DNA from: Triglochin maritima
Taxonomy: Eukaryota > Streptophyta > Magnoliopsida > Alismatales > Juncaginaceae
DNA length: 64,000 bases
Direction: 5' to 3'
Assembly (NCBI GenBank): GCA_963682175.1
Contig: OY821784.1
Coordinates: 20,131,621-20,195,620 of the forward strand
How positions within the stretch are numbered: position 1 is the first letter of the stretch; each line of letters begins with the position of its first letter. Positions 4,241-61,320 of the stretch are shown one piece after another. Below the pieces are notes generated by a model. The model ran no database searches, was not told the DNA's origin, and was given only the letters and a program-made list of their open reading frames with translations. The translations under genes were made by a program, and so were the position numbers.

Positions 4241-4320
4241 TCAAAGAAAATTGTAATTGATCCTTATTATACATAAAAATTTCGAAAATATATATGTATA
4301 ATTAAACATGAAATCCTACA

Positions 4321-5004
4321 CCTCCTTCCCTCTCTTCTCTACCTCTCTCGTTCCCTCTCCCTCCTCTTCCTTCTTCTCCTTCATTTTCTATCTCCCTCCT
4401 CCTTCTCTCGCTCTCTCCCCCTTCTTCTCCCTCCTCTCTCCCTCTCCGCTCTTGTCTATTCTCGTGTTCTCTCTCTCTGCTCTTCTTATCCTCTTTTCTC
4501 CACTCTCCTTCTCTCCCCCTTCTCTACCTCTCGCTCTCGTTCTCCATATCTCTTCTCTCTCTCTCTCCCTTTCCCTCTCTTCTCTTATCTCTCTTCCCAT
4601 TTCTCTTCTTCACTACCACTCTCCTCCCTCTTCTCCTTCTCTCCTCCTCCTTGTTCTACCCCTCACCTTCTCTCGCTTCTCCTTTTCTCACTCTCCCTCT
4701 TATGCTCTTTCTCTTCTCCTTCTCTCTCGTTCACTCTCTCCTTATCTCTCTTTACTTCTCTCTCTTTCTCCCTCTCTCCTCCCTTCCTCTTCTCTCTCCC
4801 TCTCTTTCTCTCCCTCTCCTCCACTCTCCCTTCTCTCTCTTCTCTCCCTCCTCTCTCCTTCTCTAACGCTCCACCCTTCTCACTCTCCTCTTCTCTCGTT
4901 TCCTCCCTCCTTCTCTCTCCCTCTTCCTTATCTCTTCTTCTCTCTCTCTCTCTGTCCTCTTCCCCCCTCTCTCCTCTTCCCTCTTCTCGTTCCCTATCTC
5001 TCCC
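4321..5004 (+). repeat. satellite unit S0, right-hand fragment
   Basis: The last 684 bases of a monomer, exposed by the copia insertion. It matches the end of S1 from 6706 onward but lacks about 13 bases of TGTTCTCC-type sequence near 4910. It has a private variant, TTCTTCACTACCAC, near 4606. Confidence 0.92.
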
Positions 5005-5013
5005 CTTATAAGG
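5004..5013 (+). promoter_or_regulatory. CArG-box palindrome CCTTATAAGG at the strand switch (type copy)
   Basis: CC(A/T)6GG is the consensus site of MADS-domain proteins, and this copy is also a perfect palindrome. It stands exactly where the + strand changes from pyrimidine to purine. The same ten bases occur one base before the start of each unit listed here, in 20 of 21 switch points; only S17 is altered. Binding is not shown by sequence alone. Confidence 0.6.
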
Positions 5014-7400
5014 ATAAGGAGAGATGGAAGAGAGGAGCGAGAGGGAGAGAAGGAGAAGAAGAGAGAGGATAAAGAGAAGAGAAGGAGATGGGACTCCTCT
5101 CTCAATCTCCTCCTTCCCTTCTTCGCTCCTCTCCCCGTTCTCTCTCCCCCCTTCTTCCCTCTCCTTACCTTCTCTCTCCTTCTCCCTCCTATCCTCTTCT
5201 CTTCCCTCTACTCTCCTTTCTCTCTCTCTTCTCTCCCCTTCTCTATCTCCTTATCCCTCTCCTCCTCTCACTTCTCTCGGTTCCTCCCTCCTCCTCTATC
5301 TCTCTTGCTTCTCTCCTTCTGTGTCTCTACTCTCCCTTCTCTATCTCGTTCCCTTCCCCTTCCCTCTTCTCCTCCTATCCTTCTCCGTTCTCCTCTCATT
5401 TTCTTGTTCCCTCTCACCTCCTCTCTTGTTCCCTCTCTCCTTCTTCTTCTCTCTCTCCCCCTCTTCTCCCTCTCTCTCCTCCCCTCTCGTCCTCTCGTTC
5501 TCTCTCCCTCCCTCCCGCTCTCTCCCTCCTTCTCCGCTCTCTCCTCTTTTCCATCCGTGTCCTCTCGTTCCCTCTCTCTTCTCCTTATCTCTCCCTCTCT
5601 CTCCTTCCCTCTCTTCGTCTCCTCTCCTTCTCCCTCATCTTCTCTCTCTCCTTTCATCCTTTCATCTCCTCTAATTGCCCCTCTCTTCTCCTTCAATCCC
5701 TCTCCCTTTTTTCTCTCACCTTCCCTTCTCTGTCTCCTCCTCTCCCTCTCCTCTTCTCCATTTCCCTCTCTCTCCTTCTCCCTCTTATTATCTCTCTCTT
5801 TCTCTCTCCTCTTATCTGTCCTCTCTTATTTCTCCTTCTCTATCTCCCTCTTATCTCTCTCCTTCTCTCCTTTTCTCTCTCCCACTTATCCCACTCCTCC
5901 ACTCCCTCCTTCTCCTCCTCTCGCTCTCTCTCCCTTCTTCTCCCTCGTATCTCTTATCTTTTCTCCCATCCCTCTCTCCTCTTTTCTGTTCTCCTTCTCT
6001 TCTCTCCTTATCCTTATCCCTATTCTCACTTCTCTGCCTCTATCCTTCTCTCTTCTCCTATGTTGTCTACCTCTCTCTCTTCTCCATCTCTCTCATTCTC
6101 TCCCCCTCTCTTCCCTCTTCTCTGCCTTCTCATTATCCTTATCCTTCTCCTCCTCTCTCCCTTCTCATTTCTCTCACCTTCTCTTTCTCTCTCTTCCGTC
6201 TATCCCTCTCTCCTTATGCCACTCTCTTTATCTCTCTCCTTCTCCATCTTCTTCTCTCCCTTCTCTTGCTTCTCCTTTTCTCCCACTCATCTCTCTCTCC
6301 TCGTCCCATTCTGTACAGCCCTTCTCTCACTCTCTCTCGTTCTACCCCTCTCTCTTCTCTCCTTCTCTACCACTCTCCTTCTCTCTCACTCTTCCCTCTT
6401 CTCTTTCTCTCATCTCCCTCGCCTCATCTCTATCTCCCTCACATTCCCTCTCCTCTCCCTTCCCCCTTATCCCTCTCCCCTTCTTCTGCTCTCCTTATCC
6501 TTCTCTCTTCTTCTTCTCTCTACCCATTTTATCCTTCTCCATCCTCCTCTTTCCCTTCTCCTTCTCTCTCTCCCTCTTTCCTTCTCTCCCACTCCTTCAC
6601 CCCCTCTCTCTTCTACCTCTCTCTTCTTCTCCCTCTCCTTCTCCGTCTCCCCTCTACTTCGCTATCCTCCTGTCTCCCTCATCTCTTTCTCTCTCCCTCT
6701 TCTCTCCTCCTTCCCTCTCTTCTCTACCTCTCTCGTTCCCTCTCCCTCCTCTTCCTTCTTCTCCTTCATTTTCTATCTCCCTCCTCCTTCTCTCGCTCTC
6801 TCCCCCTTCTTCTCCCTCCTCTCTCCCTCTCCGCTCTTGTCTATTCTCGTGTTCTCTCTCTCTGCTCTTCTTATCCTCTTTTCTCCACTCTCCTTCTCTC
6901 CCCCTTCTCTACCTCTCGCTCTCGTTCTCCATATCTCTTCTCTCTCTCTCTCCCTTTCCCTCTCTTCTCTTATCTCTCTTCCCATTTCTCCTCTTCTCTA
7001 CCACTCTCCTCCCTCTTCTCCTTCTCTCCTCCTCCTTGTTCTACCCCTCACCTTCTCTCGCTTCTCCTTTTCTCACTCTCCCTCTTATGCTCTTTCTCTT
7101 CTCCTTCTCTCTCGTTCACTCTCTCCTTATCTCTCTTTACTTCTCTCTCTTTCTCCCTCTCTCCTCCCTTCCTCTTCTCTCTCCCTCTCTTTCTCTCCCT
7201 CTCCTCCACTCTCCCTTCTCTCTCTTCTCTCCCTCCTCTCTCCTTCTCTAACGCTCCACCCTTCTCACTCTCCTCTTCTCTCGTTTCCTCCCTCCTTCTC
7301 TGTTCTCCTTCTCTCTCCCTCTTCCTTATCTCTTCTTCTCTCTCTCTCTGTCCTCTTCCCCCCTCTCTCCTCTTCCCTCTTCTCGTTCCCTATCTCTCCC
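5005..7400 (+). repeat. satellite unit S1, complete (2396 bp)
   Basis: Used here as the reference monomer. Variants CTTTTCCATCCG, CTTCGTCTCC and a shortened T-run (CCCTTTTTT) are shared with S7, and the last two also with S10, rather than with its neighbour S2. TTCTTCTGCTCTCC and CTTCACCCCC are shared with S2 only. Confidence 0.95.
5010..5093 (+). other. purine island of the satellite monomer (type copy)
   Basis: About 84 bases of G and A with only a few C or T, between 2.3-kb pyrimidine tracts on the same strand. It contains repeated GAGA and GAAGAGA motifs. Its left edge folds back on the preceding pyrimidines (ATAAGGAGAGAT against ATCTCTCC..TTAT). The 16 bases ATAAGGATAAGGAGAG are the exact reverse complement of 6002-6017 in the same unit. 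The island is present in all 21 units, with point variants such as GAGAATGAG (S3) and GAGAACGAG (S6, S7). Confidence 0.85.
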
Positions 7401-9803
7401 CTTATAAGGATAAGGAGAGATGGAAGAGAGGAGCGAGAGGGAGAGAAGGAGAAGAAGAGAGAGGATAAAGAGAAGAGAAGGAGATGGGACTCCTCTCTCA
7501 ATCTCCTCCTTCCCTTCTTCGCTCCTCTCCCCGTTCTCTCTCCCCCCTTCTTCCCTCTCCTTACCTTCTCTCTCCTTCTCCCTCCTATCCTCTTCTCTTC
7601 CCTCTACTCTCCCTTCTCTCTCTCTTCTCTCCCCTTCTCTATCTCCTTATCCCTCTCCTCCTCTCACCTCTCTCGGTTCCTCCCTCCTCCTCTATCTCTC
7701 TTGCTTCTCTCCTTCTGTGTCTCTACTCTCCCTTCTTTATCTCGTTCCCTTCCCCTTCCCTCTTCTCCTCCTATCCTTCTCCGTTCTCCTCTCATTTTCT
7801 TGTTCCCTCTCACCTCCTCTCTTGTTCCCTCTCTCCTTCTTCTTCTCTCTCTCCCCCTCTTCTCCCTCTCTCTCCTCCCCTCTCGTCCTCTCGTTCTCTC
7901 TCCCTCCCTCCCGCTCTCTCCCTCCTTCTCCGCTCTCTCCTCTTATCCATCCGTGTCCTCTCGTTCCCTCTCTCTTCTCCTTATCTCTCCCTCTCTCTCC
8001 TGCCCTCTCTTCCTCTCCTCTCCTTCTCCCTCATCTTCTCTCTCTCCTTTCATCCTTTCATCTCCTCTAATTGCCCCTCTCTTCTCCTTCAATCCCTCTC
8101 CTTTTTTTCTCTCACCTTCCCTTCTCTGTCTCCTCCTCTCCCTCTCCTCTTCTCCATTTCCCTCTCTCTCCTTCTCCCTCTTATTATCTCTCTCTTTCTC
8201 TCTCCTCTTATCTGTCCTCTCTTATTTCTCCTTCTCTATCTCCCTCTTATCCCTCTCCTTCTCTCCTTTTCTCTCTCCCACTTATCCCACTCCTCCACTC
8301 CCTCCTTCTCCTCTCTCGCTCTCTCTCCCTTCTTCTCCCTCGTATCTCTTATCTTTTCTCCCATCCCTCTCTCCTCTTTTCTGTTCTTCTCCTTCTCTTC
8401 TCTCCTTATCCTTATCCCTATTCTCACTTCTCTGCCTCTATCCTTCTCTCTTCTCCTATGTTGTCTACCTCTCTCTCTTCTCCTTCTCTCTCATTCTCTC
8501 CCCCTCTCTTCCCTCTTCTCTGCCTTCTCATTATCCTTATCCTTCTCCTCCTCTCTCCCTTCTCATTTCTCTCACCTTCTCATTCTCTCTCTTCCGTCTA
8601 TCCCTCTCTCCTTATGCCACTCTCTTTATCTCTCTCCTTCTCCATCTTCTTCTCTCCCTTCTCTTGCTTCTCCTTTTCTCCCACTCATCTCTCTCTCCTC
8701 GTCCCATTCTGTACAGCCCTTCTCTCACTCTCTCTCGTTCTACCCCTCTCTCTTCTCTCCTTCTCTACCACTCTCCTTCTCTCTCACACTTCCCTCTTCT
8801 CTTTCTCTCATCTCCCTCGCCTCATCTCTATCTCCCTCACATTCCCTCTCCTCTCCCTTCCCTCTTATCCCTCTCCCCTTCTTCTGCTCTCCTTATCCTT
8901 CTCTCTTCTTCTTCTCTCTACCCATTTTATCCTTCTCCATCCTCCTCTTTCCCTTCTCCTTCTCTCTCTCCCTCTTTCCTTCTCTCCCACTCCTTCACCC
9001 CCTCTCTCTTCTGCCTCTCTCTTCTTCTCCCTCTCCTTCTCCGTCTCCCCTCTACTTTGCTATCTTCCGGTCTCCCTCATCTCTTTCTCTCTCCCTCTTC
9101 TCTCCTCCTTCCCTCTCTTCTCTACCTCTCTCGTTCCCTCTCCCTCCTCTTCCTTCTTCTCCTTCATTTTCTATCTCCCTCCTCCTTCTCTCGCTCTCTC
9201 CCCCTTCTTCTCCCTCCTCTCTCCCTCTCCGCTCTTGTCTATTCTCGTGTTCTCTCTCTCTGCTCTTCTTATCCTCTTTTCTCCACTCTCCTTTTCTCCC
9301 CCTTCTCTACCTCTCGCTCTCGTTCTCCATATCTCTTCTCTCTCTCTCTCTCTCCCTTTCCCTCTCTTCTCTTATCTCTCTTCCCATTTCTCCTCTTCTC
9401 TACCACTCTCCTCCCTCTTCTCCTTCTCTCCTCCTCCTTGTTCTACCCCTCACCTTCTCTCGCTTCTCCTTTTCTCACTCTCCCTCTTATGCTCTTTCTC
9501 TTCTCCTTCTCTCTCGTTCACTTTCTCCTTATCTCCCTTTACTTCCTCTCTCTTTCTCCCTCTCTCCTCCCTTCCTCTTCTCTCTCCCTCTCTTTCTCTC
9601 CCTCTCCTCCACTCTCCCTTCTCTCTCTTCTCTCCCTCCTCTCTCCTTCTCTAACGCTCCACCCTTCTCACTCTCCTCTTCTCTCGTTTCCTCCCTCCTT
9701 CTCTGTTCTCCTTCTCTCTCCCTCTTCCTTATCTCTTCTTCTCTCTCTCTCTGTCCTCTTCCCCCCTCTCTCCTCTTCCCTCTTCTCGTTCCCTATCTCT
9801 CCC
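7401..9803 (+). repeat. satellite unit S2, complete (2403 bp)
   Basis: Private variants include TATCTTCCGGTCTCCC near 9061, a 3-base loss before CTCGCTCTC near 8309 and CTCACCTTCTCATTCTC near 8575. ACTCTCCCTTCTC near 7608 is shared with S4. Confidence 0.95.
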
Positions 9804-12195
9804 CTTATAAGGATAAGGAGAGATGGAAGAGAGGAGCGAGAGGGAGAGAATGAGAAGAAGAGAGAGGATAAAGAGAAGAGAAGGAGATGGGACTCCTCTC
9901 TCAATCTCCTCCTTCCCTTCTTCGCTCCTCTCCCCGTTCTCTCTCCCCCCTTCTTCCCTCTCCTTACCTTCTCTCCTTCTCCCTCCTTTCCTCTTCTCTT
10001 CCCTCTACTCTCCTTTCTCTCTCTTCTCTCCCCTTCTCTATCTCCTTATCCCTCTCCTCCTCTCACCTCTCTCGGTTCCTCCCTCCTCCTCTATCTCTCT
10101 TCCTTCTCTCCTTCTGTGTCTCTACTCTCCCTTCTCTATCTCGTTCCCTTCCCCTTCCTCTTCTCCTCCTATCCTTCTCCGTTCTCCTCTCATTTTCTTG
10201 TTCCCTCTCACCTCCTCTCTTGTTCCCTCTCTCCTTCTTCTCTAACTCCCCCTCTTCTCCCTCTCTCTCCTCCCCTCTCGTCCTCTCGTTCTCTCTCCCT
10301 CCCTCCCGCTCTCTCCCTCCTTCTCCGCTCTCTCCTCTTATCCATCCGTGTCCTCTCGTTCCCTCTCTCTTCTCCTTATCTCTCCCTCTCTCTCCTGCCC
10401 TCTCTTCCTCTCCTCTCCTTCTCCCTCATCTTCTCTCTCTCCTTTAATCCTTTCATCTCCTCTAATTGCTCCTCTCTTCTCCTTCAATCCCTCTCCTTTT
10501 TTTCTCTCACCTTCCCTTCTCTGTCTCCTCCTCTCCCTCTCCTCTTCTCCATTTCCCTCTCTCTCCTTCTCCCTCTTATTATCACTCTCTTTCTCCCTCC
10601 TCTTATCTGTCCTCTCTTATTTCTCCTTCTCTATCTCCCTCTTATCCCTCTCCTTCTCTCGTTTTCTCTCTCCCACTTATCCCACTCCTCCACTCCCTCC
10701 TTCTCCTCCTCTCGCTCTCTCTCCCTTCTTCTCCCTCGTATCTCTTATCTTTTCTCCCATCCCTCTCTCCTCTTTTCTGTTCTCCTTCTCTTCTCTCCTT
10801 ATCCTTATCCCTATTCTCACTTCTCTGCCTCTATCCTTCTCTCTTCTCCTATGTTGTCTACCTCTCTCTCTTCTCCTTCTCTCTCATTCTCTCCCCCTCT
10901 CTTCCCTCTTCTCTGCCGTCTCATTATCCTTATCCTTCTCCTCCTCTCTCCCTTCTCATTTCTCTCACCTTCTCTTTCTCTCTCTTCCGTCTATCCCTCT
11001 CTCCTTATGCCACTCTCTTTATCTCTCTCTCCTTCTCCATCTTCTTCTCTCCCTTCTCTTGCTTCTCCTTTTCTCCCACTAATCTCTCTCTCCTCGTCCC
11101 ATTCTGTACAGCCCTTCTCTCACTCTCTCTCGTTCTACCCCTCTCTCTTCTCTCCTTCTCTACCACTCTCCTTCTCTCTCACTCTTCCCTCTTCTCTTTC
11201 TCTCATCTCCCTCGCCTCATCTCTATCTCCCTCACATTCCCTCTCCTCTCCCTTCCCTCTTATCCCTCTCCCCTTCTTCTTCTCTCCTTATCCTTCTCTC
11301 TTCTTCTTCTCTCTACCCATTTTATCCTTCTCCATCCTCCTCTTTCCCTTCTCCTTCTCACTCTCCCTCTTTCCTTCTCTCCCACTCCTTCACCTCCTCC
11401 CTCTTCTGCCTCTCTCTTCTTCTCCCTCTCCTTCTCCGTCTCCCCTCTACTTCGCTATCCTCCTGTCTCCCTCATCTCTTTCTCTCTCCCTCTTCTCTCC
11501 TCCTTCCCTCTCTTCTCTACCTCTCTCGTTCCCTCTCCCTCCTCTTCCTTCTTCTCCTTCATTTTCTATCTCCCTCCTCCTTCTCTAGCTCTCTCCCCCT
11601 TCTTCTCCCTCCTCTCTCCCTCTCCGCTCTTGTCTATTCTCGTGTTCTCTCTCTCTGCTCTTCTTATCCTCTTTTCTCCACTCTCCTTCTCTCCCCCTTC
11701 TCTACCTCTCACTCTCGTTCTCCATATCTCTTCTCTCTCTCTCTCTCCCTTTCCCTCTCTTCTCTTATCTCTCTTCCCATTTCTCCTCTTCTCTACCACT
11801 CTCCTCCCTCTTCTCCTTCTCTCCTCCTCCTTGTTCTACCCCTCACCTTCTCTCGCTTCTCCTTTTCTCACTCTCCCTCTTATGCTCTTTCTCTTCTCCT
11901 TCTCTCTCGTTCACTCTCTCCTTATCTCTCTTTACTTCTCTCTCTTTCTCCCTCTCTCCTCACTTCCTCTTCTCTCTCCCTCTCTTTCTCTCCCTCTCCT
12001 CCACTCTCCCTTCTCTCTCTTCTCTCCCTCCTCTCTCCTTCTCTAACGCTCCACCCTTCTCACTCTCCTCTTCTCTCGTTTCCTCCCTCCTTCTCTGTTC
12101 TCCTTCTCTCTCCCTCTTCCTTATCTCTTCTTCTCTCTCTCTCTGTCCTCTTCCCCCCTCTCTCCTCTTCCCTCTTCTCGTTCCCTATCTCTCCC
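9804..12195 (+). repeat. satellite unit S3, complete (2392 bp)
   Basis: The island carries GAGAATGAG. Further private changes are TTCTCTAACTCCCC near 10240 and a small loss near 9975. CTTCTCACTCTCC and CACCTCCTCCCTC near 11355-11405 recur in the right half of S4. Confidence 0.95.
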
Positions 12196-13627
12196 CTTAT
12201 AAGGATAAGGAGAGATGGAAGAGAGGAGCGAGAGGGAGAGAAGGAGAAGAAGAGAGAGGATAAAGAGAAGAGAAGGAGATGGGACTCCTCTCTCAATCTC
12301 CTCCTTCCCTTCTTCGCTCCTCTCCCCGTTCTCTCTCCCCCCTTCTTCCCTCTCCTTACCTTCTCTCTCCTTCTCCCTCCTATCCTCTTCTCTTCCCTCT
12401 ACTCTCCCTTCTCTCTCTCTTCTCTCCCCTTCTCTATCTCCTTATCCCTCTCCTCCTCTCACCTCTCTCGGTTCCTCCCTCCTCCTCTATCTCTCTTGCT
12501 TCTCTCCTTCTGTGTCTCTACTCTCCCTTCTCTATCTCGTTCCCTTCCCCTTCCCTCTTCTCCTCCTATCCTTCTCCGTTCTCCTCTCATTTTCTTGTTC
12601 CCTCTCACCTCCTCTCTTGTTCCCTCTCTCCTTCTTCTCTCTCTCCCCTCTTCTCCCTCTCTCCTCCCCTCTCGTCCTCTCGTTCTCTCTCCCTCCCTCC
12701 CTCTCTCTCCCTCCTTCTCCGCTCTCTCCTCTTATCCATCAGTGTCCTCTCGTTCCCTTCTCCATCCTCCTCTTTCCCTTCTCCTTCTCACTCTCCCTCT
12801 TTCCTTCTCTCCCACTCCTTCACCTCCTCCCTCTTCTGCCTCTCTCTTCTTCTCCCTCTCCTTCTCCGTCTCCCCTCTACTTCGCTATCCTCCTGTCTCC
12901 CTCATCTCTTTCTCTCTCCCTCTTCTCTCCTCCTTCCCTCTCTTCTCTACCTCTCTCGTTCCCTCTCCCTCCTCTTCCTTCTTCTCCTTCATTTTCTATC
13001 TCCCTCCTCCTTCTCTCGCTCTCTCCCCCTTCTTCTCCCTCCTCTCTCCCTCTCCGCTCTTGTCTATTCTCGTGTTCTCTCTCTCTGCTCTTCTTATCTT
13101 CTTTTCTCCACTCTCCTTCTCTCCCCCTTCTCTACCTCTCGCCCTCGTTCTCCATACCTCTTCTCTCTCTCTCTCTCTCCCTTTCCCTCTCTTCTCTTAT
13201 CTCTCTTCCCATTTCTCCTCTTCTCTACCACTCTCCTCCCTCTTCTCCTTCTCTCCTCCTCCTTGTTCTACCCCTCACCTTCTCTCGCTTCTCCTTTTCT
13301 CACTCTCCCTCTTATGCTCTTTCTCTTCTCCTTCTATCTCGTTCACTCTCTCCTTATCTCTCTTTACTTCTCTCTATTTCTCCCTCTCTCCTCCCTTCAT
13401 CTTCTCTCTCCCTCTCTTTCTCTCCCTCTCCTCCACTCTCCCTTCTCTCTCTTCTCTCCCTCCTCTCTCCTTCTCTAACGCTCCACCCTTCTCACTCTCC
13501 TCTTCTCTCGTTTCCTCTCTCCTTCTCTGTTCTCCTTCTCTCTCCCTCTTCCTTATCTCTTCTTCTCTCTCTCTCTCTGTCCTCTTCCCCCCTCTCACCT
13601 CTTCCCTCTTCTCGTTCCCTATCTCTC
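12196..13627 (+). repeat. satellite unit S4, internally deleted (1432 bp)
   Basis: About 965 bp are missing. Near 12757, monomer phase about 565 (CTCTCGTTCCC) is joined to phase about 1530 (TTCTCCATCC), with only about 3 bases shared at the join. The right half has S3-type variants. The left half shares ATCAGTGTCC and a shortened CCCCTCTTCTCC stretch with S5. Confidence 0.93.
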
Positions 13628-15656
13628 CTTATAAGGATAAGGAGAGATGGAAGAGAGGAGCGGGAGGGAGAGAAGGAGAAGAAGAGAGAGGATAAAGAGA
13701 AGAGAAGGAGATGTGACTCCTCTCTCAATCTCCTCCTTCCCTTCTTCGCTCCTCTCCCCGTTCTCTCTCCCCCCTTCTTCCCTCTCCTTACCTTCTCTCT
13801 CCTTCTCCCTCCTATCCTCTTCTCTTCCCTCTACTCTCCTTTCTCTCTCTCTTCTCTCCCCTTCTCTATCTCCTTATCCCTCTCCTCCTCTCACCTCTCT
13901 CGGTTCCTCCCTCCTCCTCTATCTCTCTTGCTTCTCTCCTTCTGTGTCTCTACTCTCCCTTCTCTATCTCGTTCCCTTCCCCTTCCCTCTTCTCCTCCTA
14001 TCCTTCTCCGTTCTCCTCTCATTTTCTTGTTCCCTCTCACCTCCTCTCTTGTTCCCTCTCTCCTTCTTCTTCTCTCTCTCCCCTCTTCTCCCTCTCTCCT
14101 CCCCTCTCGTCCTCTCGTTCTCTCTCCCTCCCTCCCTCTCTCTCCCTCCTTCTCCGCTCTCTCCTCTTATCCATCAGTGTCCTCTCGTTCCCTCTCTCTT
14201 CTCCTTATCTCTCCCTCTCTCTCCTGCCCTCTCTTCCTCTCCTCTCCTTCTCCCTCATCTTCTCTCTCTCCTTTAATCCTTTCATCTCCTCTAATTGCCC
14301 CTCTCTTCTCCTATATTGTCTACCTCTCTCTCTTCTCCTTCTCTCTCATTCTCTCCCCCTCTCTTCCCTCTTCTCTGCCTTCTAATTATCCTTATCCTTC
14401 TCCTCCTCTCTCCCTTCTCATTTCTCTCACCTTCTCTTTCTCTCTCTTCCGTCTATCCCTCTCTCCTTATGCCACTCTCTTTATCTCTCTCTCCTACTCC
14501 ATCTTCTTCTCTCCCTTATCTTGCTTCTCCTTTTCTCCCACTCATCTCTCTCTCCTCGTCCCATTCTGTACAACCCTTCTCTCACTCTCTCTCGTTCTAC
14601 CCCTCTCTCTTCTCTCCTTCTCTACCACTCTCCTTCTCTCTCACTCTTCCCTCTTCTCTTTCTCTCATCTCCCTCGCCTCATCTCTATCTCCCTCACATT
14701 CCCTCTCCTCTCCCTTCCCTCTTATCCCTCTCCCCTTCTTCTTCTCTCCTTATCCTTCTCTCTTCTTCTTCTCGCTACCCATTTTATCCTTCTCCATCCT
14801 CCTCTTTCCCTTCTCCTTCTCTCTCTCCCTCTTTCCTTCTCTCCCACTCCTTCACCTCCTCTCTCTTCTGCCTCTCTCTTCTTCTCCCTCTCCTTCTCCG
14901 TCTCCCCTCTCCTTCGCTATCCTCCTGTCTCCCTCATCTCTTTCTCTCTCCCTCTTTTCTCCTCCTTCCCTCTCTTCTCTACCTCTCTCGTTCCCTCTCC
15001 CTCCTCTTCCTTCTTCACCTTCATTTTCTATCTCCCTCCTCCTTCTCTCGCTCTCTCCCCCTTCTTCTCCCTCCTCTCTCCCTCTCCGCTCTTGTCTATT
15101 CTCGTGTTCTCTCTCTGCTCTTCTTATCCTCTTTTCCCCACTCTCCTTCTCTCCCCCTTCTCTACCTCTCGCTCTCGTTCTCCATATCTCTTCTCTCTCT
15201 CTCTCCCTTTCCCTCTCTTCTCTTATCTCTCTTCCCATTTTTCCTCTTCTCTACCACTCTCCTCCCTCTTCTCCTTCTCTCCTCCTCCTTGTTCTACCCC
15301 TCACCTTCTCTCGCTTCTCCTTTTCTCACTCTCCCTCTTATGCTCTTTCTCTTCTCCTTCTCTCTCTTTCACCCTCTCCTTATCTCTCTTTATTTCTCTC
15401 TCTTTCTCCCTCTCTCCTCCCTTCCTCTTCTCTCTTCCTCTCTTCTCTCTCCCTCTCCTCCACTCTCCCTTCTCTCTCTTCTCTCCCTCCTCTCTCCTTC
15501 TCTAACGCTCTACCCTTCTCACTCTCCTCTTCTCTCGTTTCCTCCCTCCTTCTCTGTTCTCCTTCTCTCTCCCTCTTCCTTATCTCTTCTTCTCTCTCTC
15601 TCTCTGTCCTCTTCCCCCCTCTCTCCTCTTCCCTCTTCTCGTTCCCTATCTCTCCC
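13628..15656 (+). repeat. satellite unit S5, internally deleted (2029 bp)
   Basis: About 370 bp are missing at 14301-14312, where the 12-base sequence CTCTCTTCTCCT occurs at both ends of the lost segment in complete units. It has the CC-less switch (TCTCCTTATAAGG), and island variants GAGCGGGAG and GATGTGACT. CTGTACAAC, CTCTCCTTCGC and CTTCTTCACC are shared with S8; the last two also with S11. Confidence 0.93.
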
Positions 15657-34023: not shown

Positions 34024-34027
34024 GGCT

Positions 34028-36490: not shown

Positions 36491-36631
36491 TTTGGTGTGA
36501 AAATCGCGAGTTTTTGTGAAAAAACAAGGGTGAACGGCCTAGGAAACCCTAGGTTCCCCATGCCCAAAACCAAGAGCTTCTCTCTCCTCTCATTTTTCCC
36601 TTTTCCACCTCTATTCACCTTCTTCTTCTCT
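36491..36631 (-). other. LINE A 5' UTR
   Basis: 141 bases between the satellite duplication and the ORF1 ATG. It contains CCTAGGAAACCC (also in LINE B at the same relative place) followed by a CT-rich stretch as read on the + strand. This stretch grades into the satellite, so the exact 5' end is set by the duplication and not by composition. Any internal promoter would lie here; none is recognisable beyond the shared motif. Confidence 0.7.
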
Positions 36632-36648
36632 CTCTCTTCTCTACCTCT
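36632..36648 (+). repeat. target-site duplication of LINE A, copy at LINE 5' end
   Basis: Identical to 30242-30258. The satellite continues without loss after it (CTCGTTCCCTCTCCC). Confidence 0.9.
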
Positions 36649-49247: not shown

Positions 49248-51654
49248 CTTATAAGGATAAGGAGAGATGGAAGAGAGGAGCGAGAGGGAGAGAAGGAGAA
49301 GAAGAGAGAGGATAAAGAGAAGAGAAGGAGATGGGACTCCTCTCTCAATCTCCTCCTTCCCTTCTTCGCTCCTCTCCCCGTTCTCTCTCCCCCCTTCTTC
49401 CCTCTCCTTACCTTCTCTCTCCTTCTCCCTCCTATCCTCTTCTCTTCCCTCTACTCTCCATTCTCTCTCTCTTCTCTCCCCTTCTCTATCTCCTTATCCC
49501 TCTCCTCTCACCTCTCTCGGTTCCTCCCTCCTCCTCTATCTCTCTTGCTTCTCTCCTTCTGTGTCTCTACTCTCCCTTCTCTATCTCGTTCCCTTCCCCT
49601 TCCCTCTTCTCCTCCTATCCTTCTCCGTTCTCCTCTCATTTTCTTGTTCCCTCTCAGCTCCTCTCTTGTTCCCTCTCTCCTTCTTCTTCTCTCTCTCCCC
49701 CTCTTCTCCCTTTCTCTCCTCCCCTCTCGTCCTCTCGTTCTCTCTCCCTCCCTCCCGCTCTCTCCCTCCTTCTCCGCTCTCTCCTCTTATCCATCCGTGT
49801 CCTCTCGTTCCCTCTCTCTTCTCCTTATCTCTCCCTCTCTCTCCTGCCCTCTCTTCCTCTCCTCTCCTTCTCCCTCATCTTCTCTCTCTCCTTTAATCCT
49901 TTCATCTCCTCTAATTGCCCCTCTCTTCTCCTTCAATCCCTCTCCTTTTTTTCTCTCACCTTCCCTTCTCTGTCTCCTCCTCTACCTCTCCTCTTCTCCA
50001 TTTCCCTCTCTCTCCTTCTCCCTCTTATTATCTCTCTCGTTCTCTCTCCTCTTATATGTCCTCTCTTATTTCTCCTTCTCTATCTCCCTCTTATCCCTCT
50101 CCTTCTCTCCTTTTCTCTCTCCCACTTATCCCACTCCTCCACTCCCTCCTTCTCCTCCTCTCGCTCTCTCTCCCTTCTTCTCCCTCGTATCTCTTATCTT
50201 TTCTCCCATCCCTCTCTCTTCTTTTCTGTTCTCCTTCTCTTCTCTCCTTATCCTTATCCCTTTTCTCACTTCTCTGCCTCTATCCTTCTCTCTTCTCCTA
50301 TGTTGTCTACCTCTCTCTCTTCTCCTTCTCTCTCATTCTCTCCCCCTCTCTTCCCTCTTCTCTGCCTTCTCATTATCCTTATCCTTCTCCTCCTCTCTCC
50401 CTTCTCATTTCTCTCACCTTCTCTTTCTCTCTCTTCCGTCTATCCCTCTCTCCTTATGCCACTCTCTTTATCTCTCTCTCCTTCTCCATCTTCTTCTCTC
50501 CCTTATCTTGCTTCTCCTTTTCTCCCACTCATCTCTCTCTCCTCGTCCCATTCTGTACAGCCCTTCTCTCACTCTCTCTCGTTCTACCCCTCTCTCTTCT
50601 CTCCTTCTCTACCACTCTCCTTCTCTCTCACTCTTCCCTCTTCTCTTTCTCTCATCTCCCTCGCCTCATCTCTATCTCCCTCACATTCCCTCTCCTCTCC
50701 CTTCCCTCTTATCCCTCTCCCATTCTTCTTCTCTCCTTATCCTTCTCTCTTCTTCTTCTCTCTACCCATTTTATCCTTCTCCATCCTCCTCTTTCCCTTC
50801 TCCTTCTCTCTCTCCCTCTTTCCTTCTCTCCCACTCCTTCACCTCCTCTCTCTTCTGCCTCTCTCTTCTTCTCCCTCTCCTTCTCCGTCTCCCCTCTACT
50901 TCGCTATCCTCCTGGCTCCCTCATCTCTTTCTCTCTCCCTCTTCTCTCCTCCTTCCCTCTCTTCTCTACCTCTCTCGTTCCCTCTCCCTCCTCTTCCTTC
51001 TTCTCCTTCATTTTCTATCTCCCTCCTCCTTCTCTCGCTCTCTCCCCCTTCTTCTCCCTCCTCTCTCCCTCTCCGCTCTTGTCTATTCTCGTGTTCTCTC
51101 TCTCTGCTCTTCTTATCCTCTTTTCTCCACTCTCCTTCTCTCCCCCTTCTCTACCTCTCGCTCTCGTTCTCCATATCTCTTCTCTCTCTCTCTCTCTCTC
51201 TCTCTCCCTTTCCCTCTCTTCTCTTATCTCTCTTCCCATTTCTCCTCTTCTCTACCACTCTCCTCCCTCTTCTCCTTCTCTCCTCCTCCTTGTTCTACCC
51301 CTCACCTTCTCTCGCTTCTCCTTTTCTCACTCTCCCTCTTATGCTCTTTCTCTTCTCCTTCTCTCTCGTTCACTCTCTCCTTATCTCTCTTTACTTCTCT
51401 CACTTTCTCCCTCTCTCCTCCCTTCCTCTTCTCTCTCCCTCTCTTTCTCTCCCTCTCCTCCACTCTCCCTTCTCTCTCTTCTCTCCCTCCTCTCTCCTTC
51501 TCTAACGCTCCACCCTTCTCACTCTCCTCTTCTCTCGTTTCCTCCCTCCTTCTCTGTTCTCCTTCTCTCTCCCTCTTCCTTATCTCTTCTTCTCTCTCTC
51601 TCTGTCCTCTTCCCCCCTCTGTCCTCTTCCCTCTTCTCGTTCCCTATCTCTCCC
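49248..51654 (+). repeat. satellite unit S18, complete (2407 bp)
   Basis: First unit with the S18-S20 set: a 3-base loss giving CCCTCTCCTCTCACC (49498), CTCTCAGCTCC (49652) and CTCCTCTACCTCTCC (49976). It is also the last unit with CTGGCTCCC. A long (CT)n run near 51182 accounts for part of its length. Confidence 0.95.
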
Positions 51655-54039
51655 CTTATAAGGATAAGGAGAGATGGAAGAGAGGAGCGAGAGGGAGAGA
51701 AGGAGAAGAAGAGAGAGGATAAAGAGAAGAGAAGGAGATGGGACTCCTCTCTCAATCTCCTCCTTCCCTTCTTCGCTCCTCTCCCCGTTCTCTCTCCCCC
51801 CTTCTTCCCTCTCCTTACCTTCTCTCTCCTTCTCCCTCCTATCCTCTTCTCTTCCCTCTACTCTCCTTTCTCTCTCTCTTCTCTCCCCTTCTCTATCTCC
51901 TTATCCCTCTCCTCTCACCTCTCTCGGTTCCTCCCTCCTCCTCTATCTCTCTTGCTTCTCTCCTTCTGTGTCTCTACTCTCCCTTCTCTATCTCGTTCCC
52001 TTCCCCTTCCCTCTTCTCCTCCTATCCTTCTCCGTTCTCCTCTCATTTTCTTGTTCCCTCTCAGCTCCTCTCTTGTTCCCTCTCTCCTTCTTCTTCTCTC
52101 TCTCCCCCTCTTCTCCCTCTCTCTCCTCCCCTCTCGTCCTCTCGTTCTCTCTCCCTCCCTCCTTCTCCGCTCTCTCCTCTTATCCATCCGTGTCCTCTCG
52201 TTCCCTCTCTCTTCTCGTTATCTCTCCCTCTCTCTCCTGCCCTCTCTTCCTCTCCTCTCCTTCTCCCTCATCTTCTCTCTCTCCTTTAATCCTTTCATCT
52301 CCTCTAATTGCCCCTCTCTTCTCCTTCAATCCCTCTCCTTTTTTTCTCTCACCTTCCCTTCTCTGTCTCCTCCTCTACCTCTCCTATTCTCCATTTCCCT
52401 CTCTCTCCTTCTCCTTGTTTTTATCTCTCTCTTTCTCTCTCCTCTTATATGTCCTCTCTTATTTCTCCTTCTCTATCTCCCTCTTATCCCTCTCCTTCTC
52501 TCCTTTTCTCTCTCCCACTTATCCCACTCCTCCACTCCCTCCTTCTCCTCCTCTCGCTCTCTCTCCCTTCTTCTCCCTCGTATCTCTTATCTTTTCTCCC
52601 ATCCCTCTCTCCTCTTTTCTGTTCTCCTTCTCTTCTCTCCTTATCCTTATCCCTATTCTCACTTCTCTGCCTCTATCCTTCTCTCTTCTCCTATGTTGTC
52701 TACCTCTCTCTCTTCTCCTTCTCTCTCATTCTCTCCCCCTCTCTTCCCTCTTCTCTGCCTTCTCATTATCCTTATCCTTCTCCTCCTCTCTCCCTTCTCA
52801 TTTCTCTCACCTTCTCTTTCTCTCTCTTCCGTCTATCCCTCTCTCCTTATGCCACTCTCTTTATCTCTCTCTCCTTCTCCATCTTCTTCTCTCCCTTCTC
52901 TTGCTTCTCCTTTTCTCCCACTCATCTCTCTCTCCTCGTCCCATTCTGTACAGCCCTTCTCTCACTCTCTCTCGTTCTACCCCTCTCTCTTCTCTCCTTC
53001 TCTACCACTCTCCTTCTCTCTCACTCTTCCCTCTTCTCTTTCTATCATCTCCCTCGCCTCATCTCTATCTCCCTCACATTCCCTCTCCTCTCCCTTCCCT
53101 CTTATCCCTCTCCCCTTCTTCTTCTCTCCTTATCCTTCTCTCTTCTTCCTCTCTCTACCCATTTTATCCTTCTCCATCCTCCTCTTTCCCTTCTCCTTCT
53201 CTCTCTCCCTCTTTCCTTCTCTCCCACTCCTTCACCTCCTCTCTCTTCTGCCTCTCTCTTCTTCTCCCTCTCCTTCTCCGTCTCCCCTCTACTTCGCTAT
53301 CCTCCTGTCTCCCTCATCTCTTTCTCTCTCCCTCTTCTCTCCTCCTTCCCTCTCTTCTCTACCTCTCTCGTTCCCTCTCCCTCCTCTTCCTTCTTCTCCT
53401 TCATTTTCTATCTCCCTCCTCCTTCTCTCGCTCTCTCCCCCTTCTTCTCCCTCCTCTCTCCCTCTCCGCTCTTGTCTATTCTCGTGTTCTCTCTCTCTCT
53501 GCTCTTCTTATCCTCTTTTCTCCACTCTCCTTCTCTCGCCCTTCTCTACCTCTCGCTCTCGTTCTCCATATCTCTTCTCTCTCTCTCTCCCTTTCCCTCT
53601 CTTCTCTTATCTCTCTTCCCATTTCTCCTCTTCTCTACCACTCTCCTCCCTCTTCTCCTTCTCTCCTCCTCCTTGTTCTACCCCTCACCTTCTCTCGCTT
53701 CTCCTTTTCTCACTCTCCTTCTTATGCTCTTTCTCTTCTCCTTCTCTCTCGTTCACTCTCTCCTTATCTCTCTTTACTTCTCTCTCTTTCTCCCTCTCTC
53801 CTCCCTTCCTCTTCTTTCTCCCTCTCTTTCTCTCCCTCTCCTCCACTCTCCCTTCTCTCTCTTCTCTCCCTCCTCTCTCCTTCTCTAACGCTCCACCCTT
53901 CTCACTCTCCTCTTCTCTCGTTTCCTCCCTCCTTCTCTGTTCTCCTTCTCTCTCCCTCTTCCTTATCTCTTCTTCTCTCTCTCTCTCTGTCCTCTTCCCC
54001 CCTCTCTCCTCTTCCCTCTTCTCGTTCCCTATCTCTCCC
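51655..54039 (+). repeat. satellite unit S19, complete (2385 bp)
   Basis: It carries the S18-S20 set. A private loss of about 20 bases near 52160 removes one CGCTCTCTCCCTC step. TTGTTTTTATC near 52415 is private. CTCCTATTCTCC near 52380 is shared with S20. Confidence 0.95.
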
Positions 54040-55800
54040 CTTATAAGGATAAGGAGAGATGGAAGAGAGGAGCGAGAGGGAGAGAAGGAGAAGAAGAGAG
54101 AGGATAAAGAGAAGAGAAGGAGATGGGACTCCTCTCTCAATCTCCTCCTTCCCTTCTTCGCTCCTCTCCCCGTTCTCTCTCCCCCCTTCTTCCCTCTCCT
54201 TACCTTCTCTCTCCTTCTCCCTCCTATCCTCTTCTCTTCCCTCTACTCTCCTTTCTCTCTCTCTTCTCTCCCCTTCTCTATCTCCTTATCCCTCTCCTCT
54301 CACCTCTCTCGGTTCCTCCCTCCTCCTCTATCTCTCTTGCTTCTCTCCTTCTGTGTCTCTACTCTCCCTTCTCTATCTCGTTCCCTTCCCCTTCCCTCTT
54401 CTCCTCCTATCCTTCTCCGTTCTCCTCTCATTTTCTTGTTCCCTCTCAGCTCCTCTCTTGTTCCCTCTCTCCTTCTTCTTCTCTCTCTCCCCCTCTTCTC
54501 CCTCTCTCTCCTCCCCTCTCGTCCTCTCGTTCTCTCTCCCTCCCTCCCGCTCTCTCCCTCCTTCTCCGCTCTCTCCTCTTATCCATCCGTGTCCTCTCGT
54601 TCCCTCTCTCTTCTCCTTATCTCTCCCTCTCTCTCCTGCCCTCTCTTCCTCTCCTCTCCTTCTCCCTCATCTTCTCTCTCTCCTTTAATCCTTTCATCTC
54701 CTCTAATTGCCCCTCTCTTCTCCTTCAATCCCTCTCCTTTTTTTCTCTCACCTTCCCTTCTCTGTCTCCTCCTCTACCTCTCCTATTCTCCATTTCCCTC
54801 TCTCTCCTTCTCCTTCTTATTATCTCTCTCTTTCTCTCTCCTCTTATATCTCCTCTCTTATTTCTCCTTCTCTATCTCCCTCTTATCCCTCTCCTTCTCT
54901 CCTTTTCTCTCTCCCACTTATCCCACTCCTCCACTCCCTCCTTCTCCTCCTCTCGCTCTCTCTCCCTTCTTCTCCCTCGTATCTCTTATCTTTTCTCCCA
55001 TCCCTCTCTCCTCTTTTCTGTTCTCCTTCTCTTCTCTCCTTATCCTTATCCCTATTCTCACTTCTCTGCCTCTATCCTTCTCTCTTCTCCTATGTTGTCT
55101 ACCTCTCTCTCTTCTCCTTCTCTCTCATTCTCTCCCCCTCTCTTCCCTCTTCTCTGCCTTCTCATTATCCTTATCTTTCTCCTCCTCTCTCCCTTCTCAT
55201 TTCTCTCACCTTCTCTTTCTCTCTCTTCCGTCTATCCCTCTCTCCTTATGCCACTCTCTTTATCTCTCTCTCCTTCTCCATCTTCTTCTCTCCCTTCTCT
55301 TGCTTCTCCTTTTCTCCCACTCATCTCTCTCTCCTCGTCCCATTCTGTACAGCCCTTCTCTCACTCTCTCTCGTTCTACCCCTCTCTCTTCTCTCCTTCT
55401 CTACCACTCTCCTTCTCTCTCACTCTTCCCTCTTCTCTTTCTCTCATCTCCCTCGCCTCATCTCTATCTCCCTCACATTCCCTCTCCTCTCCCTTCCCTC
55501 TTATCCCTCTCCCCTTCTTCTTCTCTCCTTATCCTTCTCTCTTCTTCTTCTCTCTACCCATTTTCTCCTTCTCCATCCTCCTCTTTACCTTCTCCTTCTC
55601 TCTCTCCCTCTTTCCTTCTCTCCCACTCCTTCACCTCCTCTCTCTTCTGCCTCTCTCTTCTTCTCCCTCTCCTTCTCCGTCTCCCCTCTACTTCGCTATC
55701 CTCCTGTCTCCCTCTTCTCTCCTCCTTCCCTCTCTTCTCTACCTCTCTCGTTTCCTCTCCCTCCTCTTCCTTCTTCTCCTTCATTTTCTATCTCCCTCCT
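54040..55800 (+). repeat. satellite unit S20, left part (interrupted by LINE B)
   Basis: 1761 bases up to the LINE junction. The unit resumes at 61321 and ends at 61957, together 2398 bases. It carries the S18-S20 set and CTCCTATTCTCC. About 20 bases are lost near 55712 just before the insertion region. Confidence 0.95.
55784..55800 (+). repeat. target-site duplication of LINE B, copy at LINE 3' end
   Basis: TTTTCTATCTCCCTCCT, identical over 17 of 17 bases to 61304-61320. The T-run of the tail starts at its last base, so the length is 16-17 bp. It may extend by ambiguity in the T-run at the other end. Confidence 0.9.
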
Positions 55801-56005
55801 TTTTTTGCAAGCAAAAGGGAGGCTCAGCCTCTAAATCGATTAAGTGTGTGAATTTACAACCTACAAAAATTGTCCTTTAATTCCGCAGGATATGCCACAT
55901 GCATACCCGGCCACTACTTCTACTCTATCACTATCACCTAATTAAGGCTCCACATTTCGACCCATTACACCACGGGACTCATGCTATTACAAAAGGTATA
56001 ATACC
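55801..56005 (-). other. LINE B 3' UTR with terminal double hairpin and poly(A)
   Basis: The tail is T at 55801-55806 on the + strand. The hairpins are TTTTGC-TT-GCAAAA-type at 55803-55816 and GAGGC-TCA-GCCTC at 55819-55831. Both stems are identical to those of LINE A; the loops differ. ACAACCTACAAAAAT follows near 55857. The remaining bases to the ORF2 stop show nothing recognisable. Confidence 0.75.
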
Positions 56006-59000
56006 CTATAGTGCCCAAGTTCTATGAAAGTCCAATAAGCTCGCGGGATCCTCTATAATCTCTTTGAGGTTGCTCCCAATGCTTCGCACTCCTTCCTTCA
56101 CAAGTTTTACAACATCCACCGAGCGCTTCTTCTCATCATCGAAAATTCGCCTATTCCGCTCAAGCCAACATTCGTGCACCGCCGCGCCTAGAGCCAAACG
56201 CATTAAGTGCACCTTTTCAGCCCCTCCCCCAATCCTCATTAGTCCATGTACCTCGGCTTCCATAGTTCCTTCCACGTTCGTGCTCAAACTTAGCACCCTC
56301 TTGACTTGGCCCCAAACAGATTTCGTGAACTTACATTTCCAGAAAAGGTGAGCCATATCCTCCTCACCATCCTCGCAAAGCACACATATGGTATCGTGTG
56401 TGGCTCCCATTTGCTTCATCAAGCACTTGGTTGTCAATCTTCCACGCAAAACTCTCCAAAGAGTTAGTGCATGTTTCGGAATGTGATGTTTATGCCATAC
56501 TAGGGAGGCCCAACCCACATCCTCCATCCTTGGAGTTATCCACTTCCAAGCCTCCTTTATGTTGAACTTCTCACTAGTCATTCCCACACGAACCGGTTTG
56601 TCACTTCCACCATGGATTGGGACACTTAATATTTGCGGCCATAACTCCTCCATCTCGGTAATTCGTGGAAATGGGAGCTGCCACGTCCCATCTCTAATAA
56701 AATACGACACATGAGTATCCATGGGGACCCCCATGTTGTATTGCAGCCAATCTCCCCCCGGGCGAGAGATAAACGGTATTCCACACCAAGGGTCAAGGAA
56801 GAAACGAATGGAAGTGTCATCCCCTACTTGGTACTGCATTTTCTCCTTCGCTTTGTCACGAACGCTCAATATACCTTTCCATGCCCATGAGGAATTTGCT
56901 GGAGGCCGAGCAAGCCAAATTGATCTATTTCGCATGTATTTACGGCGAATGCATTGCACCCAAAGTGACGCACCATTTTCAACCACCAACCAAAAAAGTC
57001 GTAGCATTCCAACTTCGTTCCATTCCGTGAGCCTCTTCAGCCCCAAGCCTCCCTTTTTCTTTGGTTTGCATATATCTTTCCATGCCACGGCCACCCATTT
57101 CTTTGGGCCACCCCACACGAAGTGTATCATGATACTCTCCAACTCCTTCAACACCTTCCTTGGAAGCAAGAAGGTAGATGTCCAATATATACTAAAGGAC
57201 ACCAAAACACTCCTCACCAACTCCACCCTCCCCGCCATGGATAGGAAACTCCTCTTCCAAGTGCTTAAACGGGTGCGCACCTTCTCAATGAGGACCAAAC
57301 AGTGTTGCTTGCCAATACGCGCCGAGAACAATGGCAGCCCTAAATATATCACCGGGAAATCGACTCTCTCCATCCCCAAATGTGCACAAATCCATTGACC
57401 ATCTCTTGCATCCCCCCAATAAATACTTGGCTTTTGGTAGTGTTTAGTTGGAGGCCCGACATGGCTGAGAACTTCACAAGAACCTCCTTTATCGCACGGG
57501 CATTCTCATGGGTAGCATCCGCGAACACCATCACATCATCGGCAAATAGAAGATGAGACACCGGGATGTCCCCACATCTTGCCGTTGTGATAGTTCCCCT
57601 CTCCACCTCTTCCTTGATCATCATACTCAATACTTCCATACACAAGACAAACAAGTAGGGGGCAAGTGGGTCACCTTGCCTAAGTCCATTTGTTGCGCGG
57701 AAAGGCTTTGAGTTGGCACCATTCACCGTTACCACAAATGACGCTCGCACACACGCCATCATCCATTTCCTCCACAAGCTTGGAAAGCCGAACCTCTTCA
57801 ATACTTCTTCAAGGAATGTCCATGAGACGGAGTCATAAGCCTTGCGTAAGTCTAGCTTGAGACACATACGCCCCTTCCCTCGACTCAAGTGCATATTATG
57901 GCATACTTCATGTGCTACCAAAATGTTGTCACTAATCCTTCGTCCACTCACAAATGCACTTTGCGTCTCCCCCACCAATCGTGGAAACACCTTCTTCAAC
58001 CTATTTGCCAATACTTTTGAAAGATAGCGGTAAATCATATTGCATAGGGAGATGGGGCGATAGTCATCAACCGTAGTTGGCGTCGCCTTCTTCGGAATGA
58101 GTGTAATTGATCTATAGTTTACTTGAGCTAACAACTTCCCACTACGCATGAAGGAGTCCACCGCCTTGAATATATCTAGCTTCACCCATGACCACGAGCT
58201 CTTGAAGAACTTTGCATTGAACCCATCGGGGCCCGGTGCCTTGTCCACGTTCGAATGCATGACCACATGCTCCAACTCATCCATACTTAGGTTCTTGATT
58301 AATGCTGCACTTTCACCTTCCTCAAGTCGTGGGAGTTGGACTTGTGAGTCAAGAGTTTGTACCTGAAAACCATTAGCAAACAAGTTAGAGTAACGGCGCC
58401 TAAACGCCTCACGAATCTCCTCCTCACTCTCAAAGGTTTGACCCCCTTCCATCACTCGTCTCACATTGTTGGTGGCTCTCCTCACACGAAGGGAAGCATG
58501 AAAGAATCTAGAGTTCCGGTCGCCCTCACGTAGCCACTTTATCCTCGATTTTTGCCTCAAAATTGATTCCTCCCTCGTTAGTTCTCGATCATACTCATCT
58601 TTGCATCGAGTTTCATTTTCTTTGAGAAGTTCATCATCCGGGTGTGCCATCCTTTGAAGTCTCACCCCTTCAAGGGCTGATTTAGCTTCATTTACTCTCT
58701 CCACCGGATCCCCAAACGTTTCCTCGGTCCACTTTTTCAAGGCCTCTTTCACCGCCCCAAGTTTCGCCATTACTCGGAACATGGGTGTCCCATCCACCAA
58801 AGTGGCCCATGCTGTACCAACAACATCCGAAAAACCCTCATGGTCAACCCAATAGTTTGCAAATCGGAACATTCTAGCCTTACGAATGCTCGTCTTTTCC
58901 GTCGTCATAAGAAGTGGGGAGTGATCGCTAAGCTCTTTACCACCCACCACGTAAGAAATTTCCGGGAAATCAGCCAACCAAGCATGCGACATAAGGATCC

Positions 59001-59601
59001 TATCTATACGTGTTTCAATGCACGCCTCACCATTGGACGAGTTGGTCCACGTGAATTCCCATCCGGTTGATGGCACCTCAATTAGTTGCACCCGGTCTAA
59101 ACAAGAGTTGAACTCCTCCATCGCCGTGATATTTAACCCCGCACCACCTCTCTTCTCCTCTCTCCTTCTTATGCAATTGAAGTCCCCACCTACAATCCAA
59201 GGTGTAGAACTCGGGGGTGCCGCTCTTTCCAAGTCCGCCCAAAGCCTTCTTCTTTCCACATACCCATTTTCCCCATACACCACCGTGATTACCATGTTCT
59301 TCCCATTTCGTAGCTCCTTTCCTTCGAGTTGAAGTAGTTGTGTCGTTTCCCATGTCACGTGTAAATCCATTTTGCTTTCATCCCACATCACAAGTATCCT
59401 TCCCGAATCCACGATCATGTTGTTTGCCGCCCATTGATTATTTTCCCATATAGCTCTCCGGAAGCGATCCAACTTCTTAGTCTTCACTTTGTGTTCCAAA
59501 ATGCACACAACATCCGCCTTTGCCTCTCTTATTTTTCCCCGTATCATGTGTGCACGGCCGGGGAGATTTGCGCCGTGCACATTCCACACAAGCATATTCA
59601 T
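56006..59601 (-). pseudogene. LINE B ORF2: endonuclease-reverse transcriptase, one frameshift
   Basis: It starts MNMLVWNVHG, with the ATG overlapping the ORF1 stop as ATGA. Endonuclease residues visible are N7, E36, D140 and N142 in VGGDFN, and D226-H227 in SDH. The reverse transcriptase has APGPDGFNAKFF, LIPKK, DYRPISLCNMIYR, KLDLRKAYDSV, LRQGDPLAPYLF and FADD at 57535-57546. The zf-RVT domain is near the C-terminus (HHIPKHALTLWR, CVLC, HLFWKC). A single-base frameshift lies between about 57380 and 57405, just after the catalytic core and before VIYLGLPLF, and splits it into 750- and 457-codon frames. No in-frame stop was found elsewhere, so this copy is one indel away from an open ORF2. Confidence 0.94.
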
Positions 59602-61177
59602 GGTTTTGGAGTAGGGGATCGAGATCCCTTTCCACCTCGTGTTGCTCTTTGTTGCACCATGGCCTTCTCACGAACGGCTTTGAACGCCTCCGGTTGTGGG
59701 GAGATGGAGGACAAGTCCACCACCGGGGGTGGGGATGTAGCTTTTGTTCCCACCCTCGCCCCCCTCATTTCCTCCCTCATCACCCTATCCTCACTCTCGG
59801 GTTGCACCACTTCACCGAGGCCCTTGAGAGCTTCAAACCGGCCACATGAACCTCCTTCTGAGGCTCCCCCACGGATGAGCACCAAATTCGAACTCCCCTT
59901 GTCCATCTCGTGTGCCACTCGTTTGGGAGAAGTCCACACCTCATTTTGGTTTGTGGCATTTCGAAAATCCTCCTCAAAAGCAAGAGTAACAACTCCTTCA
60001 AGTGCATCCACATCATTTTCTCTTTCTTTACCCACCCCTATGACACGTGTCACGTTTTGGTTTGGCCTCCCATCATTGGCTTTTTCCTTTCCACGTGTAT
60101 CCTTCCCATTTGCTTCATGGCTGCCCAAAGGTGTAGCCCCCCCATCAATTTCGAAATTCCCCCCAACAATTGGCTCAAGCAAAGAACATGATTTTTCTTT
60201 TCCAAAGATGCTTTTTCCTTTTTGTCCTTCCCTTCCTTTTTGTCCCCCTCCACTAACTTTTTGTCCCCCTTGGTTTGTCCCATGTGCACCTTCCCCCATG
60301 ACCACCTCACCTCCGGTGACATCTCCGGCGACCTCTACCGGCGCACCTCCGGCCAGCCCCTCCTCACCGGCAACCACTCCCAATACCTCATTTGTTTCAC
60401 CTTCAACGCCCATTCCAGCCACCACGTTTTCACCTTCCTTCTCCTCTTGTGATCGCACTTCTTTCCCTCCTCTCCCCACCACCACCCATTCTTTGCTTTT
60501 CTTCTTTCCGACCGGCTTCACTTGGGCTCTACGTGGGCATCTCGCCGGAGCATGGCCAAAGTCCTTGCAATCATCGCAATACCCCAACCTCCACTCATAC
60601 TCCACCGCAATATCCTCCTCCTCTCCATCCTCCACTTGAACTCGGATTCTTGGTGGGTAGTCAAACGTGCATGGAACTTCCACACACAAACGTGCATAAG
60701 CCAATCGCCTCCCCACCGCCGTGTTCTCATCCATGTAGAGGGGTCTTCCAATGACACTAGCTATAGTGCTCAAGTTCTTTGGTGACCAAAACCGCAAATC
60801 CAACTCCGGCATGCGGATCCAAATGGGCACCGTGGACATCTTCTCCCTCTTCATCACGGTTGTGGGTGTCCATCGTTGAACCACTAGAGGTGTGCCCCTC
60901 ACAAACCAAGGGCCGACCTCCTCCCTTGAGCACCTTGCCATGCGCACGCCCTCCTTAACTTCCGGTTCCACGAACTCAAGAGCCGTGGATGCCCTTGGGC
61001 ACGGAGAGAACAAGTCCGTCCATTTCCTCGGAGATGGTGCACCATTCTCCCTAGTGGTACTCGCCTCTCTTCCTCTAACTCCCCTTGCCGGCCCAAATGG
61101 GCATTTTGGAGGTCCAAAACATTGCCACAACCTCCATCTTGCATCACAACATGAGAAGAGCGACTAGATCGCTCCAT
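59598..61177 (-). pseudogene. LINE B ORF1: DUF4283/CCHC protein, 5' frameshift and internal deletion
   Basis: The original start is placed at 61177 (MERSSRSSHVVMQDGGCGN), which aligns with the LINE A start MAPTTSHSRLQEQDGDCGT. A frameshift near 61035-61055 then moves to the frame carrying the rest, so the open frame beginning at 61130 is not the natural N-terminus. In the DUF4283-like domain CSREEV is joined directly to GPWFVRGTPL, while LINE A has 65 residues between them. The knuckle CDDCKDFGHAPARC (C-x2-C-x4-H-x4-C) is intact. The tail is charged and rich in Gly, Glu and Lys. The stop overlaps the ORF2 start. Confidence 0.9.
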
Positions 61178-61303
61178 AAAAGTGGAAAAAACGAAGATTT
61201 AAGTGGAAAAACGTGAAAAATGACCTAGGAAACCCATAGAAAACCCCATGCTTTCCCTATAGCTTCTCTCTCCTACTTTTTCCTTCTCTATCTCACTCTT
61301 TTT
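61178..61303 (-). other. LINE B 5' UTR
   Basis: About 126 bases. It shares CCTAGGAAACCC (near 61223) and AGCTTCTCTCTCCT with LINE A as read on the + strand. The outer end runs into a T-run (61299-61307) adjoining the duplication. Confidence 0.7.
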
Positions 61304-61320
61304 TTTTCTATCTCCCTCCT
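61304..61320 (+). repeat. target-site duplication of LINE B, copy at LINE 5' end
   Basis: Identical to 55784-55800. The satellite continues directly with CCTTCTCTCGCTC. Confidence 0.9.

Follow-up and report, generated by a model that had tools for sequence, protein, structure and literature searches.

Three retrotransposon insertions in a 2.4-kb satellite array of Triglochin maritima, a Ty1/copia element and two LINEs, fall within the same 79 bp of the satellite unit. The shared phase is confirmed and, taken at face value, improbable (p ~0.003). It is probably a coincidence noticed afterwards, produced by three independent and ordinary insertions into different units of one array.

Satellite array and inserted elements

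The window, that is, the whole stretch of 64,000 nucleotides that was analysed, contains the following features:

1..4320, + strand, Ty1/copia retrotransposon, 3' part (PF25597 and PF07727 matches, LTR end)
4321..4325, + strand, copia/satellite junction at phase 1705 (CCTCC, the expected 5-bp target duplication)
4321..64000, + strand, pyrimidine-rich 2.4-kb satellite array (21 landmarks, consensus of 15 full units), interrupted by the two LINEs
30242..30258, + strand, left target site duplication (TSD) of LINE A, phase 1714-1730, identical to 36632-36648
30259..36631, - strand, LINE A, L1-type (RVT_1, zf-RVT, DUF4283), poly(A) end at 30259
36632..36648, + strand, right TSD of LINE A, identical to the left copy
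55784..55799, + strand, left TSD of LINE B, phase 1768-1783, identical to 61304-61319
55800..61303, - strand, LINE B, L1-type (Exo_endo_phos, RVT_1, zf-RVT, DUF4283), poly(A) end at 55800
61304..61319, + strand, right TSD of LINE B, identical to the left copy

The satellite units were delimited by a landmark, CCTTATAAGGATAAGGAGAGATGG, of which the window holds 21 copies when up to 4 edits are allowed. The consensus of 2400 bp was built from 15 units longer than 2300 bp, drawn from the 18 units without a large insert, and these 15 units are 98.9-99.7% identical to it. Units 4, 5 and 10 (12195-15655, 25151-26122) are shortened by deletions of 964, 367 and 1425 bp, the last of which removes phases 792-2216. 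Two deletions are common to units 6 and 9 and one to units 14 and 15 (15656-25150, 39722-44447). The commonest repeat offset in the window is about 7.13 kb, and duplication appears to have involved blocks of about three units. The landmark had no match in collections of viral and prokaryote contigs, and satellite unit 1 had none in a plasmid collection at megablast sensitivity; given the types of collection, both results carry little weight.

The satellite is strongly strand-asymmetric, with 7% purines outside phases 1-95. A purine-rich block of 84 bp (phase 7-90) follows the palindrome CCTTATAAGG and has the look of a short inverted stretch. Mismatch to the nearest unit is 1.27% for the left part of the unit that holds LINE A (28529-30258) and 1.45% for the unit after LINE B (61957-64000), compared with 0.54-0.88% for full-length units and 0.56% for the left part of the LINE B unit. 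The target unit of LINE B (54039-55799) has a 19-bp deletion at phase ~1672-1690, directly upstream of the junction cluster, and the satellite to the right of LINE B carries a 22-bp insertion at phase 2108 (61640-61700), apparently a local duplication.

The 3' end of the copia element is inside the window and its 5' half is outside, so the CCTCC duplication is an expectation from one flank. The reverse transcriptase is of the RVT_2 type of Ty1/copia elements (PF07727, 251 bits), and the 3' LTR extends from about 2199 to 4320 and is preceded by a polypurine tract at 2193. It terminates in ...AAATCCTACA at 4320, and the satellite resumes at 4321 at consensus phase 1705.

Both LINEs carry an RVT_1 reverse transcriptase (RT) domain, a poly(A) end and exact TSDs, with 8 A and 17 bp for LINE A (CTCTCTTCTCTACCTCT) and 7 A and 16 bp for LINE B (TTTTCTATCTCCCTCC, with one extra T that may be part of the site or of the tail). 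Their assignment to the L1 type is based on the domains, the poly(A) ends and the TSDs. An Exo_endo_phos domain upstream of the RT was matched in LINE B; in LINE A the ORF scanned for it, the RT ORF of 913 amino acids, begins downstream of the expected endonuclease. The first ORF of LINE A is split in two (34949-36490 and 34028-34939). With its split first ORF and an RT ORF that begins past the expected endonuclease, this copy looks disabled. The two LINEs share 66% nucleotide identity over 2834 bp and 80% over the 76 bp of their 3' ends, where a GAGGC/GCCTC hairpin precedes the A tract. On the sense strand both have a purine-rich start, which makes their 5' ends similar to the purine strand of the surrounding satellite. 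The best listed protein matches were 60-71% identical for LINE B, 56-72% for LINE A and 81-85% for the copia RT protein (query coverage 47-100% over all three element queries). Nearly all named relatives among the best 120 listed are from plants.

Phase coincidence of the three insertions

The original prediction placed the copia junction at phase ~1701 and the LINE duplications at 1710-1726 and 1764-1780. These phases were counted along one unit and are correct to about 4 bp; along the 2400-bp consensus we obtained 1705, 1714-1730 and 1768-1783. When the nick side of each LINE is used, the three points span 79 bp. The accompanying estimate of the chance of such a cluster, about 0.003, was reproduced: three points placed uniformly fall within a 79-bp arc of 2400 with a probability of 0.0033-0.0034. 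Kuiper and Rayleigh tests on the three junctions (n=3) gave p = 0.0030 and p = 0.0028, and p was 0.0033 when each phase was weighted by how many units contain it. Pairwise, copia and LINE A are 25 bp apart (p 0.021), LINE A and LINE B 54 bp (p 0.045), and copia and LINE B 79 bp (p 0.066).

The sequence preference of the LINEs was taken into account in two ways. With the LINE nicks confined to T/C steps, of which a unit has 697, the cluster had p = 0.0035. With the nicks confined to the motif CTAYCTC (17 positions), which was picked after the fact, the value was 0.012. All of these values are nominal, the same three points having both suggested the co-phasing and tested it. If the coincidence was one of 10 to 50 that might have been reported, a number that we assumed, the family-wise p is 0.03-0.15. 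The junctions lie at phases 1705, 1730 and 1783 and therefore lack the shared target base of a site-specific retrotransposon; the insertions occupy a common segment but not one base.

The mechanisms behind the insertions had been described as unrelated. This is correct for copia versus the LINEs, but the two LINEs are relatives, as their 66% identity shows, so that just two kinds of machinery are involved. We saw no sign in the window that the inserts were amplified together with the array, which would have undone the argument; 16-mers of the inserts are almost all single-copy.

Sequence properties of the segment

Three causes had been suggested for a fixed insertion site in each monomer, namely non-B DNA, the edge of a bound protein and a nucleosome linker. 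For non-B DNA we found little in favour. Pure pyrimidine runs reach their greatest lengths (68, 60 and 49 nt) at phases 2141, 426 and 1541, and mirror arms are longest at phase 1494, all outside the segment. Three runs touch or adjoin the segment, of 44, 32 and 37 nt (4th, 11th and 7th of 171); the 44-nt run at 1681-1724 touches it, as does a mirror with 12-nt arms at 1707. A protein-bound edge receives no support from sequence variation, which is unremarkable in the segment: the 15 units show 5 variants there, where 80 bp carry 7.7 on average (30th percentile). The nucleosome-linker proposal fares no better. At an assumed spacing of ~185 bp a 2.4-kb unit would have about 13 linkers. A model in which all insertions enter 13 equivalent phased linkers yields the cluster in 0.6% of cases and hardly improves on having no model, and if one linker were special, it would need to be some 80 bp long.

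The segment has GC and T contents close to the median, few purines (12th to 24th percentile) and a 10.4-bp dinucleotide periodicity at the 20th percentile. When stacking energy was calculated over 80-bp windows at the centre and the five junction positions, the values ranged from the 18th to the 48th percentile. In 20-bp windows the upstream cut of LINE B is an outlier, easily melted (98th percentile). Indels of at least 4 bp were collected from 24 units and part-units. They comprise 15 distinct deletions, with 30 ends, and 7 distinct insertions, and no deletion end and no insertion lies inside 1705-1784; the program-made list misses the 1425-bp deletion of unit 10, whose ends are also outside. 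About one deletion end is expected inside, so that 0 of 30 is a weak result that simply fails to support a fragile site. A 68-bp imperfect duplication (TRF, 9071-9200) that covers this phase was set aside, since there are 601 such weak TRF rows and the spacing of the two LINEs is 54 bp. The tested properties, from base composition, runs and mirrors to stacking over 80 bp, periodicity, variants and indels, are thus ordinary and give no sequence reason for a hotspot; chromatin could supply one.

Comparison with known systems

Several known systems resemble the present one, as far as the partial texts of the reports go. Plant L1-clade LINEs (PMC3747384) are similar in having the endonuclease (here in LINE B), RT, zf-RVT, DUF4283, poly(A) and TSDs of 16-17 bp. 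A 3' stem-loop is described there for one plant L1 lineage, and the hairpin near the tail of LINE A and LINE B is like it in kind, which is not a statement about sequence. Tal1, a Ty1/copia element of Arabidopsis, integrates into satellite occupied by CENH3 (PMC12859917). The element studied here is likewise a copia joined to satellite at an LTR end; however, Tal1 targets a chromatin domain, and the passages on it mention no fixed phase within the monomer. R2, a LINE that inserts site-specifically in the 28S rDNA gene (PMC3581529), occupies, like LINE A and LINE B, a place that recurs along a tandem array, but R2 is specific to that gene and the two LINEs entered dissimilar sequences 54 bp from each other. 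Satellite chromatin is also the target of retrotransposons in PMC12477314, PMC12321929 and PMC12371157 (hop centromeres), again at the level of a domain. Judged by titles and the opening of abstracts, none of the reports we met describes a fixed insertion phase inside a long monomer; we do not claim that there are none.

Interpretation of the co-phasing

We consider it probable that the elements inserted independently and by ordinary routes, in different units, and that their common phase is due to chance. L1 elements are known to move by target-primed reverse transcription, in which the nicked strand serves as the primer. Since the poly(A) ends of both LINEs adjoin the pyrimidine strand, that strand would have been nicked first and would have primed reverse transcription of both L1-type elements; orientation and TSDs are observed, and we infer nick order and priming from the L1 process. 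The orientation shared by the LINEs, in two cases only, may be explained by a pyrimidine-rich primer end that suits a poly(A) template. The copia element would have been joined by its integrase at the intact LTR end (one end being observed), and each unit of the array offers very many similar sites. The 697 T/C steps per unit, usable as LINE nicks of the observed sort, are in keeping with chance, as are the exact TSDs of 17 and 16 bp, which are unlike in sequence and 54 bp apart, the ordinary sequence of the segment and the family-wise p of 0.03-0.15. Counting against chance are three tests that agree on a nominal p of 0.003 and the easily melted upstream cut of LINE B.

The same p ~0.003, with all three insertions inside 79 bp, is what speaks for a segment (1700-1790) that is insertion-prone in chromatin, being exposed to copia integrase and LINE endonuclease alike by protein binding, a patch of open chromatin or some local structure. 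We regard this as unlikely, with n=3, a segment that no tested sequence property singles out, a prediction of 0.6% from equivalent linkers and no sign of breakage where about one deletion end was expected. It is equally doubtful that each 2.4-kb unit has one 80-bp door for different classes of retrotransposon, set by a chromatin feature of the unit and not by the tested sequence properties. The co-phasing behind the fixed accessible or structured site of the original prediction holds, and its structural causes find no support in the sequence; a hotspot is neither shown nor excluded, and beyond the three points nothing supports one. A preference of the LINE endonucleases for a sequence present here, with copia as a chance neighbour, would accord with the relatedness of the LINEs (66% over 2834 bp, and 80% at the 3' ends) and with the CTAYCTC in both TSDs. 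That reading is very unlikely: the motif, itself chosen afterwards, is placed differently relative to the two nicks, the used sites are 2 of its 10 occurrences per unit, and confining nicks to it still leaves p at 0.012. It is harder still to credit that the insertions were non-independent, with array amplification or misassembly giving one phase. Unit blocks do seem to have been duplicated, as the deletions shared by units 6 and 9 and by 14 and 15 suggest, but the three are different elements, one copy each, with distinct junctions and TSDs, and the part-units flanking them match uninterrupted units.

Retrotransposons that target satellite chromatin are already known, for example Tal1, and in those reports, as far as their partial texts go, the target is a domain. 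What the window shows at present is a satellite array of the ordinary kind with retrotransposons inserted in it, and a coincidence. If a fixed insertion-prone segment were true, the units would act as internal replicates of a natural assay that shows where in a repeat array the DNA is accessible to unrelated integration enzymes.
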